Source: a virus
DNA: 22,747 nucleotides
Virus record (IMG/VR): IMGVR_UViG_3300049846_001020
Span: 1 to 22,747 of that record
Strand: one strand, 5' to 3'
Made by a program: the position numbers and the translations under genes. Below the pieces are notes generated by a model. It did not search any database. It was not told the origin of the DNA and was given only the letters and a program-made list of their open reading frames with translations. How positions within the stretch are numbered: position 1 is the first letter of the stretch; every line of letters starts with the position of its first letter. Positions 1,430-12,756 of the stretch are shown here, piece by piece.

Positions 1430-1463
1430 TGGAGAGGCTTCGCTAGCGGCTAGCCTAACCCTA
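1396..1463. repeat. Cluster of CTAG-core repeats at the integrase/HTH gene junction
   Basis: GGCTAGCGG at about 1395, CGCTAGCGGCTAGCC at 1441-1455 and CCCTAGG at about 1458 lie around the junction of the integrase 3' end and the next gene's start. They resemble the double CTAG operator seen in three promoter-like sequences of this window, but I see no good -35/-10 pair here. Confidence 0.4.
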
Positions 1464-2882
1464 GGAATGGGCAGCCGCCTCCCCGGCCCTTAGCCGCACT
1501 TCACTCACCACCCCATCGGTCACCACCACCCGCTCCACCCAATCCGTCATCAGGTGCCGCGTCTGTTCCAACGTCTTGGTCATCTCCGCCCAGGCCTCGG
1601 GCTGATCCAAGGCCTCCAGCGCATCCTTCAAGCTGAACCGGCTGCCGCCATCGTTCATGCACTCCTGCAGCAACGCATTCAGCCGGTCCTCCTTGCGCCC
1701 AATCACCTCCTCTAGATCGGGGTCATCCAGCAGGCGCAGGTCACTGATCTGGCTTTGCAACTGCTGGATCTCTGGGCTCAGCTGCTGCTTTAGCCGCAGT
1801 TCATCCACCACGCTGCCGTAGGCCAGCAGTTCGCGTTTCTCCCACAGCCGCTCCATCACAGCTTCCAGCACCTTCTCTTCGTGGATGTGCTTGCGAGGCC
1901 GGATCGGGCACACCTCATGCGTACAGCGGATGTAGACCGGCCCCTGCGGACGTGCTTGGTGATGCCGCATCAACCCACCGCAATGGCCGCAATACACCAG
2001 CCCGGTCAACACGCGGCTGCGGCGCTTGCGCAGCGGCGTTGAAGCGCGGCCCCGCAGCATCCGCATGATCTTGTGAATCTCCCCTTGCTCTTCGTGCGAC
2101 ACCAGCGCTGGATGCGCGTGGGGGTGAATCTCATCCACTTGGCCGGGCTTGTGCAATAACCGCCGCTTGTTGCCCTCCTCATCCATCACCCAGCGGCACG
2201 TTCCATACACCCGGCTGCCTGCAATGGCTGGATTCATCAACCATCGCCGCAACCCTTCCAAGCTGCGAAACGCTTGGCCGCATTGTTTGTATTGAAAATC
2301 AAAGGCTTCGCGCAAGCTGGCGCACTGCAAAAAGCGTTCCACGATCCGCCGTGCAATCGGTGCGGTCTCTGGATCGAGTTCGTAGTTCAGCTTCTGCTCG
2401 GTGTAGCGATAGCCATAGGGCGGCTTGCCCGATTGCGGCTTCATTTGCTTGCGGGCATACATCTGCCCGTGATGCACGCGCTCTCCGATCAGCTCGGATT
2501 CCATCTGCGCCATGCCCATGATCACGTTGGCGCAAAAGCGCCCCATGGCTGACGACAGATCAATGGACTGATCGAGGCAGATCAGGTTGGGCCAGCTCTC
2601 CTGGTTGAACAGCCGCAGCAGCTTGCCGCCATGCACCGACGAGCGGCTCATGCGATCCAGGCGCGTGCAGACCACCGTGTTCAGCAGGTGATCCCTGCAG
2701 GCCTCCATCAACTGCTGCAGCTGGGGGCGGTCGTCGCGGGTGCCGGAGCCCACATCCACGAACTCCACCACCGGCTCGCCAATGTCGGCGGCATAGGCGC
2801 GAAGGCGGCTCAGCTGCTGCTCTAAGGCGTTGGCTTGGTCGTCGCTTTCGGTGCTGACGCGGGCGTAGATCGCCGTCGTCAT
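1461..2882 (-). CDS. int: Large serine recombinase (phage integrase)
   Basis: A 473-aa site-specific recombinase that would integrate the phage genome at an attP/attB pair through a phosphoserine intermediate. Order: N-terminal resolvase domain with IYARVST (catalytic Ser10), CTRLDRMSR and an E-helix (MGMAQMESELIGERV); a 'recombinase' domain beginning GKPPYGYRY near residue 155; a zinc ribbon (CGHCGG, later CTHEVC) near 310-340; a coiled coil around 385-420; and a basic C-terminal tail. The size suits the large serine integrase class. ATG at 2882 is unambiguous. It faces away from the plus-strand genes starting at 2969, so the 86-nt gap between them must carry divergent signals and is one place to look for attP. 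No attachment core can be identified from this window alone. Confidence 0.93.
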   Translation of the reverse strand: MTTAIYARVSTESDDQANALEQQLSRLRAYAADIGEPVVEFVDVGSGTRDDRPQLQQLMEACRDHLLNTVVCTRLDRMSRSSVHGGKLLRLFNQESWPNLICLDQSIDLSSAMGRFCANVIMGMAQMESELIGERVHHGQMYARKQMKPQSGKPPYGYRYTEQKLNYELDPETAPIARRIVERFLQCASLREAFDFQYKQCGQAFRSLEGLRRWLMNPAIAGSRVYGTCRWVMDEEGNKRRLLHKPGQVDEIHPHAHPALVSHEEQGEIHKIMRMLRGRASTPLRKRRSRVLTGLVYCGHCGGLMRHHQARPQGPVYIRCTHEVCPIRPRKHIHEEKVLEAVMERLWEKRELLAYGSVVDELRLKQQLSPEIQQLQSQISDLRLLDDPDLEEVIGRKEDRLNALLQECMNDGGSRFSLKDALEALDQPEAWAEMTKTLEQTRHLMTDWVERVVVTDGVVSEVRLRAGEAAAHS

Positions 2883-3616: not shown

Positions 3617-3636
3617 GCCCCGCAAGGGGCTTTTTT
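3617..3636 (+). terminator. Rho-independent terminator
   Basis: Perfect 5-bp GC stem GCCCC/GGGGC with a GCAA (GNRA) tetraloop, followed directly by six T residues. It lies 7 bases after the stop of the RHH gene. Confidence 0.85.
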
Positions 3637-9434: not shown

Positions 9435-9758
9435 ATGGCAAAAAAGTCAACCAATACCGAAATAGACGACCGCATCAATACGGTCTACGACCTCCTTCTG
9501 CGCGCTTACAGTCGCACCCAAATCATTCGATTCGCTTCGGAATCCTGGGGTGTTGGTGACCGTCAGGCCGAAAACTACATGGCCCGCGCTCGTCAGCTCA
9601 TGCAGCTTGACGCTGAGCTAGAGCGCCCCCAATGGCTCGCAGCCGCTATCGCGCGCCTGCAGGAATACGAACGCCGCGCTTCCGAGTCCAATCAGCTCGG
9701 TGTCGCCCTCAAGGCCTTGGAAGACCAAGCGAAGCTGCTCCGCTTCGAGATGTCCTGA
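9435..9758 (+). CDS. terS: Putative small terminase subunit
   Basis: 107 aa. The N-terminal half (NTVYDLLLRAYSRTQIIRFA, then ESWGVGDRQAENYMARARQL) reads as a helix-turn-helix DNA-recognition domain. The C-terminal half (RLQEYERRASESNQLGVALK) is a helical oligomerisation segment. Size, fold and position directly before the large terminase (overlap TGATG, one base) support TerS, which recognises the pac/cos site and feeds DNA to TerL. Sequence identity among TerS proteins is low, so position weighs heavily. Confidence 0.75.
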   Translation: MAKKSTNTEIDDRINTVYDLLLRAYSRTQIIRFASESWGVGDRQAENYMARARQLMQLDAELERPQWLAAAIARLQEYERRASESNQLGVALKALEDQAKLLRFEMS

Positions 9759-12142
9759 TGGCATCGCTTCTTGCTGGTATCTGCAAGCCCGAGCCCATCA
9801 CGGCCTTTCTCAACGACCGCTCCACCCAGCCCGTAGAGCGCCTCTCCTTCTACGACTGGCTCAAGCAGGTCTCCCCCAACGACAACTGGGACTGGCCGCA
9901 CCTCGCTTACATCCGCACCTACCTCGACGCCATCACCGCTGGTGATCTCAAGCGGCTGATCGTCACCGTGCCGCCCCGTCATGGCAAAAGCCACCAAGGC
10001 ACCATCCGCTACCCGGTGTATCGCCTAGAGCAAGACCCCACGCAGCGCGTGGTGATCGCGGCCTATTCGCAGACGCTGGCTAATACCTTCAGCCGGCAGG
10101 CTCGGCGGATTGCTTCAGAGCGGATGAACATCGCTTCCGACCGCAAGGCCGTTGAGCAATGGGAAACCGCATCAGGCGGCGGCTTGCGGGCTGTTGGTGT
10201 GGGTGGTGGTATTACCGGCCTTGGTGCCAACTGCTTACCTGCAGGAACCATGGTGCAAACAAGACGCGGATCTGTACCCATTGAACAGATCAATGTTGGC
10301 GCCAAGCCCGATAAAATACTGAGCTATAAAAACGGCCGCCTTGAGTACAAAGAAGCCCAAGCTATCCAGGTACGTCAGGGAGCTTGGCTTTACCGAATCA
10401 CCACTGCCTCTGGACGAGTGGTTGAAGCTACGGGAAACCATCGCTTCTACGTGGCCGGAGACTATCGGGAAGCGTCTTCACTTTCCGCCGGTGAGCTTCT
10501 CATGCTCTTGGTGCCAGAAGACCGGAGTCAAGGCGGCCTACGACTTCAGGAAGTGGGAGGCAAAAGGTCACAAGGACATCTATTGCAGCCGGCCTTGCTC
10601 CGAAGCTCACCACGCGATCAAGAACTGTCCAGTCTGTGTCTGCGGGGCTCGCAAGAAGCACAATCGCAAGTTTTGCGATGCTTGCCTGCCCGTGTTGAGG
10701 CAAAGACGCCAGCCAGTGCATCCGCCTGTGATCAAGCGCTGTCCAGAGTGCAACTGCGAGTTCAAAGCATTCTGGAGGGGCGTAGGAAACGGTTTCGCAA
10801 CCTATTGCAGCATGGACTGCAAGAACAGGGGGCACTCAAGGCTGATGAGTGGCAAGCAAAACCCCAAATGGAAGCATGGGGCAACGCCATTGCGTGCGCA
10901 GCCTCATTCGGCCAAGGCGTTCAGGATCATGCGCGAGTTGGTCAAAAAAAGAGACGGGTTTGCCTGCGTGAACTGCAAGGCCACCGACTATCTGCATGTT
11001 CATCACATCGACAACTGGCCCATGAACAACCGCGCAACCAACTTGGTAACGCTCTGCCGAACGTGTCACTTCAGGTTGCACAGGGCTTTGGATTCCAAGC
11101 GATCTACGAACCCATTGCCATGGTTGAGCGACTACGCAGACAGGCCACTGTTTACGACATCCAAGTCAAAGACAACCACAACTTCTTTGCCAACGGATTG
11201 CTCTGTCACAACTGCATCATCATCGACGACCCGGTGAAATCCCGCGAGGAGGCTGAATCCGAGGCCTACCGCGAGCGCGTCTGGAACTGGTATCGAGACG
11301 ACCTCTACACCCGCCTCGAACCCGGTGGTGCCGTCGTGCTCACCATGACGCGCTGGCATGAAGACGACCTGGCCGGCCGCATCCTGAACTCCGACGACGC
11401 CGACAGCTGGACCGTCGTCAACCTGCCCGCCATCGCAGAAGACAACGATCCCCTCGGCCGCACACCTGGTGCTGCGCTCTGCCCTGAGCGCTACGACCTC
11501 ACCGCCCTGCAAGATCGCCGCCGCGTCTTGGGTGAATACGGCTTCAATGCCCTGTTTCAGCAGCGGCCCTCCCCACCCGCCGGTGGTCTGTTCAAGCGCT
11601 CTTGGTGGCAGACCTACCGCGAACTGCCCCAACTCGACCGGATCATCACCAGCTGGGATCTCACCTTCAAAGACGGCCCCAACACCGACTACGTGGTGGG
11701 CCTAGTCATCGGTCAGAAAGGCGCCAGCTTCTACCTGCTCGACTGCATCCGCGACCGCCTCGACATCACCGAGACGATCCCCGCCATCGTCAACACCTTC
11801 AACCGCTACAAGCCTGTCGCCACGGTGGTGGAAGACAAGGCGAACGGCCCGGCTGTGATCGCCATGCTCCGCACCAAGGTGCCCGGCCTGATCGCGGTCA
11901 ACCCGCAAGGCGGGAAGTTCTCGCGCGCCTCAGCGATCTCCCCCATGATCGAGGCCGGCAACGTCTACCTGCCGGAGCGCAGCAGCTGGGCCTCGGCTCT
12001 CATTGAAGAGGCCGCTGCCTTCCCCAATGCCGCCCACGACGACCAAGTGGACGCGCTCAGCCAAGGCCTCTCCTGGCTCCGTTCACGCCCAGCGATCAGC
12101 ACCGCTGCCGCTGTCTCCTACGGGCAGGCCGCCGCATGGTGA
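9758..12142 (+). CDS. terL: Large terminase subunit interrupted by an intein
   Basis: 794-aa precursor that would mature to 467 aa after removal of a 327-aa intein. TerL packages DNA into proheads using an ATPase and cuts it with an RNase H-like nuclease. Visible parts: Walker A VPPRHGKS (residues 72-78); intein at 159-485; Walker B CIIIDD (486-491); VLTMTRWHEDD; nuclease motifs SWDLTFKDG, TVVEDKANGP and AAHDDQVDAL. The start at 9758, coupled to TerS, is preferred; the frame stays open back to 9632 but that region belongs to TerS. Flanking exteins GITGLGAN and CIIIDDPVKSREEAE join into a normal terminase sequence. Inside the intein an HNH gene is read in the +1 frame. Confidence 0.93.
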   Translation: MASLLAGICKPEPITAFLNDRSTQPVERLSFYDWLKQVSPNDNWDWPHLAYIRTYLDAITAGDLKRLIVTVPPRHGKSHQGTIRYPVYRLEQDPTQRVVIAAYSQTLANTFSRQARRIASERMNIASDRKAVEQWETASGGGLRAVGVGGGITGLGANCLPAGTMVQTRRGSVPIEQINVGAKPDKILSYKNGRLEYKEAQAIQVRQGAWLYRITTASGRVVEATGNHRFYVAGDYREASSLSAGELLMLLVPEDRSQGGLRLQEVGGKRSQGHLLQPALLRSSPRDQELSSLCLRGSQEAQSQVLRCLPARVEAKTPASASACDQALSRVQLRVQSILEGRRKRFRNLLQHGLQEQGALKADEWQAKPQMEAWGNAIACAASFGQGVQDHARVGQKKRRVCLRELQGHRLSACSSHRQLAHEQPRNQLGNALPNVSLQVAQGFGFQAIYEPIAMVERLRRQATVYDIQVKDNHNFFANGLLCHNCIIIDDPVKSREEAESEAYRERVWNWYRDDLYTRLEPGGAVVLTMTRWHEDDLAGRILNSDDADSWTVVNLPAIAEDNDPLGRTPGAALCPERYDLTALQDRRRVLGEYGFNALFQQRPSPPAGGLFKRSWWQTYRELPQLDRIITSWDLTFKDGPNTDYVVGLVIGQKGASFYLLDCIRDRLDITETIPAIVNTFNRYKPVATVVEDKANGPAVIAMLRTKVPGLIAVNPQGGKFSRASAISPMIEAGNVYLPERSSWASALIEEAAAFPNAAHDDQVDALSQGLSWLRSRPAISTAAAVSYGQAAAW
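10232..11212 (+). other. Intein in TerL (327 aa), class 1, apparently splicing-competent
   Basis: Cys1 begins block A (CLPAGTMVQTRRGSVPIEQI). Block B contains TGNH (Thr67, His70 of the intein). Block F is VYDIQVKDNHNFF and block G is NGLLCHN, with penultimate His and terminal Asn, followed by Cys as the +1 extein residue. All residues used in standard class 1 splicing are present. About 200 residues between blocks B and F (nucleotides ~10500-11095) have no intein or endonuclease motif in this frame: the sequence is Arg/Gln/Ser/Leu-rich, the look of an off-frame read, and it is open throughout. The endonuclease is in the other frame. Confidence 0.92.
10491..11237 (+). CDS. HNH homing endonuclease nested out of frame within the intein
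   Basis: 248 aa in the +1 frame relative to terL. Order: Cys4 zinc knuckles CSWC and CSRPC (residues ~4-35), CPVCVC and FCDAC, then CPECNC and CSMDC, a NPKWKHG linker of the NUMOD/HNH type, and the nuclease KRDGFACVNCK, LHVHHIDNW, NNRATNLVTLC, RTCHFRLH. The catalytic His pair, Asn and structural Cys residues are all kept. I chose GTG 10491 because credible protein begins there (SFSCSWCQ); the frame is open back to TTG 10341, but that part shadows intein blocks A-B. The last ~45 residues (Ser/Thr-rich) shadow blocks F-G, and the stop lies 25 bases beyond the intein. No good ribosome site is seen, so how it is translated is open. Confidence 0.82.
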   Translation: MSFSCSWCQKTGVKAAYDFRKWEAKGHKDIYCSRPCSEAHHAIKNCPVCVCGARKKHNRKFCDACLPVLRQRRQPVHPPVIKRCPECNCEFKAFWRGVGNGFATYCSMDCKNRGHSRLMSGKQNPKWKHGATPLRAQPHSAKAFRIMRELVKKRDGFACVNCKATDYLHVHHIDNWPMNNRATNLVTLCRTCHFRLHRALDSKRSTNPLPWLSDYADRPLFTTSKSKTTTTSLPTDCSVTTASSSTTR

Positions 12143-12756
12143 TGACCAAACCCCAGCGCCACAGACCTTGCGATGGCCAGCTGAGCTTTCAGCTCCTCTC
12201 CGATGGCCCCTGGCAGCCCGCACCGCTGCCCACCGGCAAGCTGCCGCCGCCCAAGCCCAAGAGCACCCGCCCGAAGACCCTCCTCTACCGCGAGCACTGC
12301 CCGCGCCAGCGCCGCCTTGAGGAGCGCATGGTGCAGCAGCACATCCCCCTGCTCAAGCTGATCATCAAGCAGCAGCACCACAAGTACAAGTGCATTGAGA
12401 TCGAGGATCTCTACAGCCTGGGCCTGATCGGCCTGCTCAAGGCGGTGCGCAAATACGACGCCGCCACCGGCTTCAAGTTCTCCACCATCGCCTTGCCCTT
12501 CATCCTGGGTGAGTGGCGTCACTACATCCGCGATCACAACTTCTGGCTCAAGGCCCCCGGTGCGGTCCGTCAGCGCGGGATGCACGCCAGACGCCTGTTG
12601 GAACGCGGTGAAACCATGGCGCAGGTGTGCGAGAAGCTCGGCATCACGGCCGAGGAGCTGAAGCTGGACCTACGCGCCACCGCTGGCATGGGCCATGAGC
12701 TGGGCGGCTTTGAGCTGCACTCCGCCGACGATCAGATGGATGCTGGCTGGCTCTAG
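12136..12756 (+). CDS. Phage-encoded sigma-70 family factor
   Basis: 206 aa (204 if ATG 12142 is used; both overlap the terL stop). Residues ~65-150 match sigma region 2: VQQHIPLLKLIIKQQ, then IEIEDLYSLGLIGLLKAVRK, YDAATGFKFSTIALPFI and EWRHYIRDHNFW, which correspond to core binding and -10 recognition/melting. The following MHARRLLERGETMAQVCEKL and GITAEELKLDL form a helix-turn-helix, but a full region 4 for -35 contacts is not obvious. The protein is shorter than a usual SigB/SigF factor. Lying between terminase and portal, it could direct RNA polymerase to late phage promoters. Confidence 0.8.
   Translation: MVMTKPQRHRPCDGQLSFQLLSDGPWQPAPLPTGKLPPPKPKSTRPKTLLYREHCPRQRRLEERMVQQHIPLLKLIIKQQHHKYKCIEIEDLYSLGLIGLLKAVRKYDAATGFKFSTIALPFILGEWRHYIRDHNFWLKAPGAVRQRGMHARRLLERGETMAQVCEKLGITAEELKLDLRATAGMGHELGGFELHSADDQMDAGWL

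Follow-up and report, generated by a model that had tools for sequence, protein, structure and literature searches.

Large inteins of the canonical kind carry a homing endonuclease in their own reading frame, as a domain placed between blocks B and F of the Hint fold, and this domain has its role in homing. A second arrangement, the 'fractured genes' of Dassa et al. 2009, is said to consist of split inteins whose halves flank an endonuclease gene of its own, the N-terminal half (IntN) ending at a stop codon and splicing taking place in trans. The third and closest in print, the ShiLan element of mycobacteriophage DNA methylases, is an out-of-frame HNH for which its authors, Arsenault, Gosselin and Gogarten (2025), saw no support as an intein or intron (PMC11855218). 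Here we consider the intein of the TerL (terminase large subunit) gene in a virus record of 22,747 bases (IMG/VR record IMGVR_UViG_3300049846_001020), which was analysed whole and is called the window below. This intein is one continuous reading frame, and an HNH endonuclease is read across it one base ahead, in the +1 frame.

The locus shares something with each of these systems. With canonical large inteins it shares the Hint fold and the place of the nuclease between blocks B and F; unlike them, it has no endonuclease domain in the intein's own frame, and the nuclease and splicing parts, not being one polypeptide, can be independently lost or split. As in the split inteins, the genes for splicing and homing are separate at one site, and the class 2 relatives described below share an EDxHD-type nuclease with them as well; unlike them, the TerL intein has neither a stop after IntN nor a separate gene for the C-terminal half (IntC), its frame running over the nuclease with no stop from Cys1 to His-Asn. 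As in ShiLan, a phage insertion leaves the host frame without stops and an HNH is read in another frame, whereas ShiLan has no splicing blocks and reads its HNH in the third (+2) frame, and the TerL host frame holds a full intein with its blocks and the HNH in +1 (PMC11855218). The HNH of the TerL intein of Gordonia phage Clown matches the methylase gp64 of Mantra (35% over 125 aa, E = 8e-7), a phage named as a ShiLan carrier (PMC11855218), and the Mantra HNH is read in the third frame.

One out-of-frame HNH case is reported in PMC12613952. PMC11855218 also cites a preprint on non-canonical actinobacteriophage inteins, with the statement that overlapping frames 'occur frequently in Actinobacteriophages'; judged by its title and this citation, the preprint may overlap with the out-of-frame inteins described here. 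A literature search that ran without bioRxiv and with few subscription papers found no other paper on an intein with an out-of-frame endonuclease, which does not prove that none exists. The proposal of the first-pass annotation of this DNA, that the layout may be undescribed, thus has to be softened: phage genes that have an out-of-frame HNH but no intein are already in print (PMC11855218), and in that search we found no published description of an intein with one.

The interrupted terL gene and its two reading frames

The features of the locus are as follows.

9758-12142, + strand: TerL, the interrupted gene
9758-10231, + strand: TerL N-extein (ATPase part), last residues ...GLGAN (open reading frame (ORF) list and sequence; PHROG terminase large subunit matches)
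10232-11212, + strand: contiguous TerL intein, 327 codons, 0 stops (Intein_splicing, NCBIfam, Hint-like AlphaFold model)
10232-10513, + strand: N-terminal splicing part with blocks A and B, Cys1 and TGNH (NCBIfam; pLDDT ~90 over residues 1-90)
11105-11212, + strand: C-terminal splicing part with blocks F and G and the His-Asn end (NCBIfam; pLDDT ~90 over residues 291-327)
11213-12142, + strand: TerL C-extein, nuclease domain, starting with the +1 Cys (CIIIDD) (Terminase_6C, 4.2e-19)
10341-11237, + strand: ORF of the HNH endonuclease, read in +1, probably beginning at TTG 10341 (298 aa), stop TGA 11235-11237 within C-extein codons
10491-10493, + strand: GTG, alternative start giving a 248-aa product
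10965-11084, + strand: +1-frame core of the HNH nuclease (residues 159-198 of P0002, Pfam HNH)
10367-10495, + strand: dual-coded stretch, intein codons 46-88, block B region in the TerL frame and N-terminal part of the HNH protein in +1

No stop interrupts the TerL frame between Cys1 (10232) and His-Asn (11212), and the +1 Cys follows directly. It matches Pfam Intein_splicing (E = 1.3e-17) and both the N- and the C-terminal intein models of NCBIfam, and profile searches with Pfam, NCBIfam and PHROG matched no nuclease family in this frame; the earlier observation that the terL frame holds the splicing blocks with no endonuclease motif between them is thereby borne out. Of the proposed intein limits, 10232 to 11237, the start stands and the end does not, since the intein ends at 11212 and 11237 closes the nuclease stop codon. 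In the AlphaFold model a Hint fold is predicted with confidence from residues 1-97 together with 281-327, and nearly all residues from 98 to 278 have pLDDT <50. Compared with PDB, the model has 36 matches at E <= 0.001 (best 6frg, E = 1.1e-5), and the 50 matches listed are inteins, intein-like or Hedgehog domains.

The single long ORF of the +1 frame, 10341-11237, encodes a zinc-ribbon HNH nuclease that is intact, as the first-pass annotation had read it (PHROG_1271 HNH endonuclease, 4.2e-26; Pfam HNH, 7.1e-5, 23.3 bits against a cut-off of 21.4), with cysteines invariant across a nine-sequence HNH alignment (A1). By sequence profile its best solved relatives are IscB (2.8e-6) and then IcmJ/DotN (1.1e-4). 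A profile search of genome contigs with A1 gave one weak HNH fragment only, and the P0001 query had no match in the 'phages' set. When the codons of the window HNH core were shuffled among synonyms, the intein frame acquired a mean of 7.4 stops and was free of them in none of 3000 tries; the observed number is 0.

We consider it highly probable that the element is a mobile intein whose DNA is coding in two overlapping layers. From the intact splicing blocks and nuclease, the two frames held open by selection, the conservation across the family and the intein-free alleles, all taken from sequence, we infer splicing, internal initiation in the window copy, cutting and homing along the following lines. 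In the first layer the TerL frame would be read straight through into a TerL-N/intein/TerL-C precursor, from which the folded Hint halves would splice the intein out, the stretch between them being tolerated as a disordered linker. In the second, an internal start in the +1 frame of the same mRNA would yield a separate zinc-ribbon HNH homing endonuclease, which would cut intein-less TerL alleles close to CIIIDD, a Walker-B-like site, and the element would then be copied into them during repair.

Related inteins and selection on the two frames

Searched separately, as the first-pass annotation had recommended, the intein and the nuclease led to homologous inteins of the same layout with 31-58% nuclease identity, every matched nuclease lying one base ahead of the intein frame. 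A nuclease-profile search gave 30 loci, of which 22 have the blocks of the TerL intein, a few of them duplicating each other, and with the HNH in +1 in 22/22; at the other eight (L038-L045) no intein of this family, class 1 hereafter, was seen, and these were left outside the comparison. An intein-profile search added 75 loci (15 of them re-fetches), and where both parts are present (47 loci) the HNH is again in +1, in 47/47. Relatives with an in-frame HNH, set down beforehand as the observation that would speak against the layout, were absent among the loci with both parts. No intein-frame stop occurs in any of the 59 inteins tabulated, a count that includes duplicates, four class 2 inteins and nine short ones. 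Two isolates have the class 1 layout, Clown and Synechococcus phage S-EIV1, and in both the annotation is terminase only.

Removal of seven near-identical inteins and seven nuclease-less or remnant ones left 42 distinct class 1 loci, in which blastn alignments >250 nt never exceed 77.5% identity; contigs cut inside the element (e.g., L034, L096, L099) were left out. Screening for near-duplicates by shared 20-mers removed none of the 42, and reduced the class 2 rows introduced below from 81 to 68. The splicing residues are kept nearly without exception (Cys1 42/42, TxxH 42/42, HN 41/42, +1 Cys/Ser 42/42). The HNH active-site pattern is found in 42/42 loci in a loosened version, written after inspection of the 12 that the first pattern had missed (30/42), and is thus a description rather than a blind test. 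The claim of a contiguous intein with an overlapping out-of-frame endonuclease accordingly finds support in the window and in 42 distinct relatives. The unusual layout, taken alone, might suggest a sequencing error or two recent compensating indels in a normally in-frame intein nuclease; given that these 42 relatives, isolates Clown and S-EIV1 included, share the register with zero intein-frame stops, we regard this explanation as having practically no chance.

In a +1 overlap an intein-frame stop arises where a nuclease codon ending in T is followed by a codon starting with AA, AG or GA. Across the 42 class 1 loci T is found at 0 of 2317 such critical places, compared with 1724 of 6311 other codons, and synonymous shuffling within each nuclease predicts 385.5 intein-frame stops where none is observed, the loci being not fully independent in this count because they share ancestry. 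The intein-frame peptide between the halves resembles a shadow of the nuclease, being hardly more alike than after shuffling (identity.289 vs.275, 48 pairs, mean z 0.56), so that the intein frame over the nuclease is kept open, not clearly kept as sequence. In the +1 frame the divergence at nuclease codon positions 1, 2 and 3 of the core is.402,.337 and.603 (85 pairs); the third positions vary most, and the nuclease is therefore the constrained protein. The layout is not an artefact, and both frames are held open by selection.

These figures also bear on the idea that the +1 nuclease is a dead relic and selection acts on the intein only. Some members of the family look as such an idea would have it: one class 1 locus (L012:2869-3864) has a +1 stop, L077 (= L079 = L080) retains two nuclease pieces, both in +1, and the mini-inteins L087, L090, L094 and L098 have no detectable nuclease, the intein frame being open in L077 and in the mini-inteins alike. 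In L084 and L092, also open in the intein frame, a C-terminal nuclease stub is the most that is left, and these short matches to the nuclease profile may be only a shadow of block F. The excess of third-position change, the active-site pattern in all 42 loci and the open HNH frame of the window make the relic explanation very unlikely.

Four distant matches turned out to be inteins of helicases (DEAH-like flanks) with a DUF559 nuclease as the +1 ORF (E = 5.1e-13 to 5.5e-14). These define class 2, for which we joined the four first hits with isolates and with the best 80 among the matches listed from a nuclease-only scan. Of these 80, 74 read the nuclease in +1 over a continuous intein frame that has 0 stops; the remaining six are two loci cut by contig ends, three free-standing nucleases (L188, L200 and L202) and one split intein (L171). 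An E..D..H..D pattern is present in 68/68 class 2 loci and presumably marks the EDxHD enzymes. DUF559 has been placed in EDxHD (PMC9403480). The splicing residues are again conserved (Cys1 68/68, TxxH 67/68, HN 64/68, the other 4 having SN), and shuffling predicts 471.6 intein-frame stops where 0 are found, in the 67 usable loci of 68, one with a stop in the nuclease frame being left out. The intein-frame peptide is here too close to a shadow, with a small excess of identity over shuffled sequence (.267 vs.241, 345 pairs, mean z 1.0). The isolates are Vibrio phages CP-T1, K391 and 1.194.O and Corynebacterium phage phi673, where the annotation gives one long protein (helicase, or 'coil containing protein' in 1.194.O) and no overlapping nuclease gene.

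Class 2 is also informative about a further alternative, in which the TerL frame over the nuclease is untranslated, the intein splices in trans as a split one and the codon choice of the nuclease happens to leave the frame open. There are indeed split relatives in which a nuclease separates the two halves: in L171:3218-4171 the intein frame ends at a stop directly behind IntN and contains 13 stops over an intact +1 nuclease, which looks like a split intein derived from the class 2 layout, and other cases stand among more distant loci. But stops accumulate in L171 and, with 28, 30 and 9 in the corresponding frame, in the free-standing L188, L200 and L202, whereas the 42 class 1 loci have none of the 385.5 expected. 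In 398 bacterial genomes of one phylum there are 29 DUF559 places in 25 genomes at E 1e-12; two of these (L247, L248) have the intein layout and 0 stops over the nuclease, and the other 27 lack an intein, 23 of them with 1 to 15 stops and four, which are shorter matches, with none. We therefore hold an untranslated frame to be exceedingly improbable.

As to the more distant loci, the set L104-L121 initially gave the impression of frame-shifted relatives. Of nine distant loci inspected (eight of this set and L122), eight are split inteins, having an N half ending at a stop and a C half in a separate ORF; in six of these a further ORF >110 codons separates the halves. The intein of L122 is contiguous and short.

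A third class, the choice of register, and mobility

Three class 1 TerL genes carry a second intein, before TRWHEDD (L004:6126-6923, L013:2846-3646 and L015:2043-2846), and its nuclease is of the endonuclease VII type (Endonuclease_7, 4.5e-17 for L004) and read in +2. A scan with this nuclease gave 34 loci, not de-duplicated, of which 31 are continuous inteins with 0 stops and the nuclease in +2, where shuffling predicts 34.8 intein-frame stops. The other three are one cut locus, one without a nuclease match and L287:1942-2740, a frameshifted or misassembled copy in which the N part is not in the frame of the C part. A further intein, in another gene (L033:6898-7659), has an HNH_3 nuclease in +2.

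A universal +1 rule was rejected on account of class 3; among the loci compared here each family keeps to one register, which is not universal. The genetic code perhaps explains part of this. The codons that cause a stop in +1 all end in T, and each can be exchanged for a synonym ending in C, so any protein can be fitted there. In +2, by the same kind of code argument, Met directly before I, M, T, N or K would always create an intein-frame stop. Such pairs are present in 39/42 class 1 and 65/68 class 2 nucleases, which could therefore not be placed unchanged in +2. The 31 class 3 cores contain none, a result that already follows from their open intein frame and so gives no independent confirmation of the argument.

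Alleles without the intein speak to mobility. TerL proteins 96% identical to that of the window lack it in L210-L213 and L230, and the insertion point reads AAC-CTG (Asn-Leu) in the uninterrupted L220, L221, L222, L225, L227 and L231 and AAC|TGC (Asn-Cys) in the invaded gene. Nucleotide identity to L212 in 90-nt bins is.98,.91,.98,.83 and.73 before the site and.82,.96,.93,.91 and.89 after it; the low tract (.73-.83) thus covers the bins from -180 to +90, ~270 nt, and identity elsewhere is.89-.98. The intein-free alleles and the divergent tract of ~270 nt fit homing, the tract as a trace of co-conversion.

Elsewhere in the window, a sigma-70 region-2 protein (12136-12756, + strand, 1.3e-8) directly follows terL and overlaps its end, and a large serine recombinase lies at 1461-2882 (- strand), with a match to cyanobacterial XisF (5.5e-84) that is below the model's cut-off. 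The XisF-like recombinase suggests a temperate phage.

The nuclease start and what the layout would mean

Three lines of evidence place the nuclease start upstream of that first assumed. In class 1 the ratio of observed to expected +1-frame stops is 1.18 in intein codons 1-28 and 1.07 in codons 29-44, and falls to 0.19 (codons 45-60), 0.07 (61-76) and 0.00 (77-88). In class 2, +1 stops are undepleted up to codon 88 (ratios 0.98, 1.12, 1.18, 0.84 and 1.03), and seven class 1-like inteins without a full nuclease have 7 stops in codons 45-88, where 9.9 are expected. In the intein frame, divergence at third positions drops in class 1 from.629 (codons 1-28, 77 pairs) to.479 (codons 46-88, 205 pairs), and in the same comparison only from.681 to.647 in class 2. 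Lastly, AlphaFold models residues 11-70 of the 298-aa protein with confidence, helices included. Because of these three, the window protein probably starts near TTG 10341 (298 aa) rather than at GTG 10491, and the 248-aa product of the first-pass annotation is probably too short; the class 1 nuclease would begin at about codon 30-45, and splicing block B is coded twice.

A start signal for the nuclease is clear in class 2. A start codon lies inside the tested interval in 61/68 loci, often directly after a +1-frame stop, and is preceded by Shine-Dalgarno-like sites with a median of -5.6 kcal/mol. At 3633 control sites the median is -2.2 (p = 1.4e-8), and a comparison with 64 ATGs in other frames gives p = 4.9e-7. 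In class 1, 24/42 loci have an ATG at intein nt 82-130.

Several observations weigh against our account of two overlapping layers. Class 1 as a whole (42 loci) shows no Shine-Dalgarno enrichment (p = 0.25), and 8/42 loci have no ATG, GTG or TTG in the tested interval. The window itself has no upstream +1 ATG; before the conserved part its candidates are TTG 10341, TTG 10422 and GTG 10491 only, and Shine-Dalgarno pairing at TTG 10341 is weak (-1.9). Foldseek found no PDB match to the HNH model at E <= 0.001 (best Cap5, 0.053). In L012 the +1 stop lies near codon 92, in the N-terminal region, so that this locus has either a later nuclease start or a nuclease decaying under an open intein frame. 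Contig L002 is identical to the window, possibly from the same population, and gives no independent check. With regard to mobility, the drop in identity has its centre at the site for alleles of the L212 type, and alleles of the L222 type are divergent over the whole 5' side and close on the 3' side; the TerL gene is a mosaic, and ordinary phage recombination could therefore also explain the drop in identity around the site.

The start-codon points would be expected if ribosomal frameshifting from the TerL/intein frame made the nuclease, as a TerL-N/IntN/HNH fusion, and the +1 ORF does open just upstream of the conserved part, where a shift would work. However, the Shine-Dalgarno-like sites before class 2 starts and the ATG in more than half of the class 1 loci argue for starts of the nuclease's own, and we consider frameshifting unlikely. 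Internal initiation on the shared mRNA is the reading we retain.

The double use of DNA in the window is not one oddity. Well over a hundred inteins of phages, falling into three kinds, share it; they pair intein and nuclease in at least three ways, +2 being used in one, and the overlap is a real and widespread intein architecture. In the examined stretches of six isolate records no homing endonuclease is listed over the intein, so homing endonucleases go unannotated in cultured phages. Going further, we lean, by a little, toward the view that overlapping homing endonucleases are a major phage intein architecture missed by annotation, comprising at least three nuclease families (zinc-ribbon HNH, EDxHD/DUF559 and endonuclease VII) at three main sites, with a register fixed per family on terms that the genetic code sets, and that the overlap is a natural intermediate on the way to split inteins.

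Since the two functions share DNA and not a frame, loss of the nuclease or splitting of the intein can leave the other layer intact. If our account is correct, a stop in the intein frame would convert an overlap into a split intein, and the layout would thus offer a route to split inteins. It would also supply a large natural set of same-strand overlapping genes in which a splicing motif is dual-coded, together with a simple code-based argument on which overlap registers can persist.

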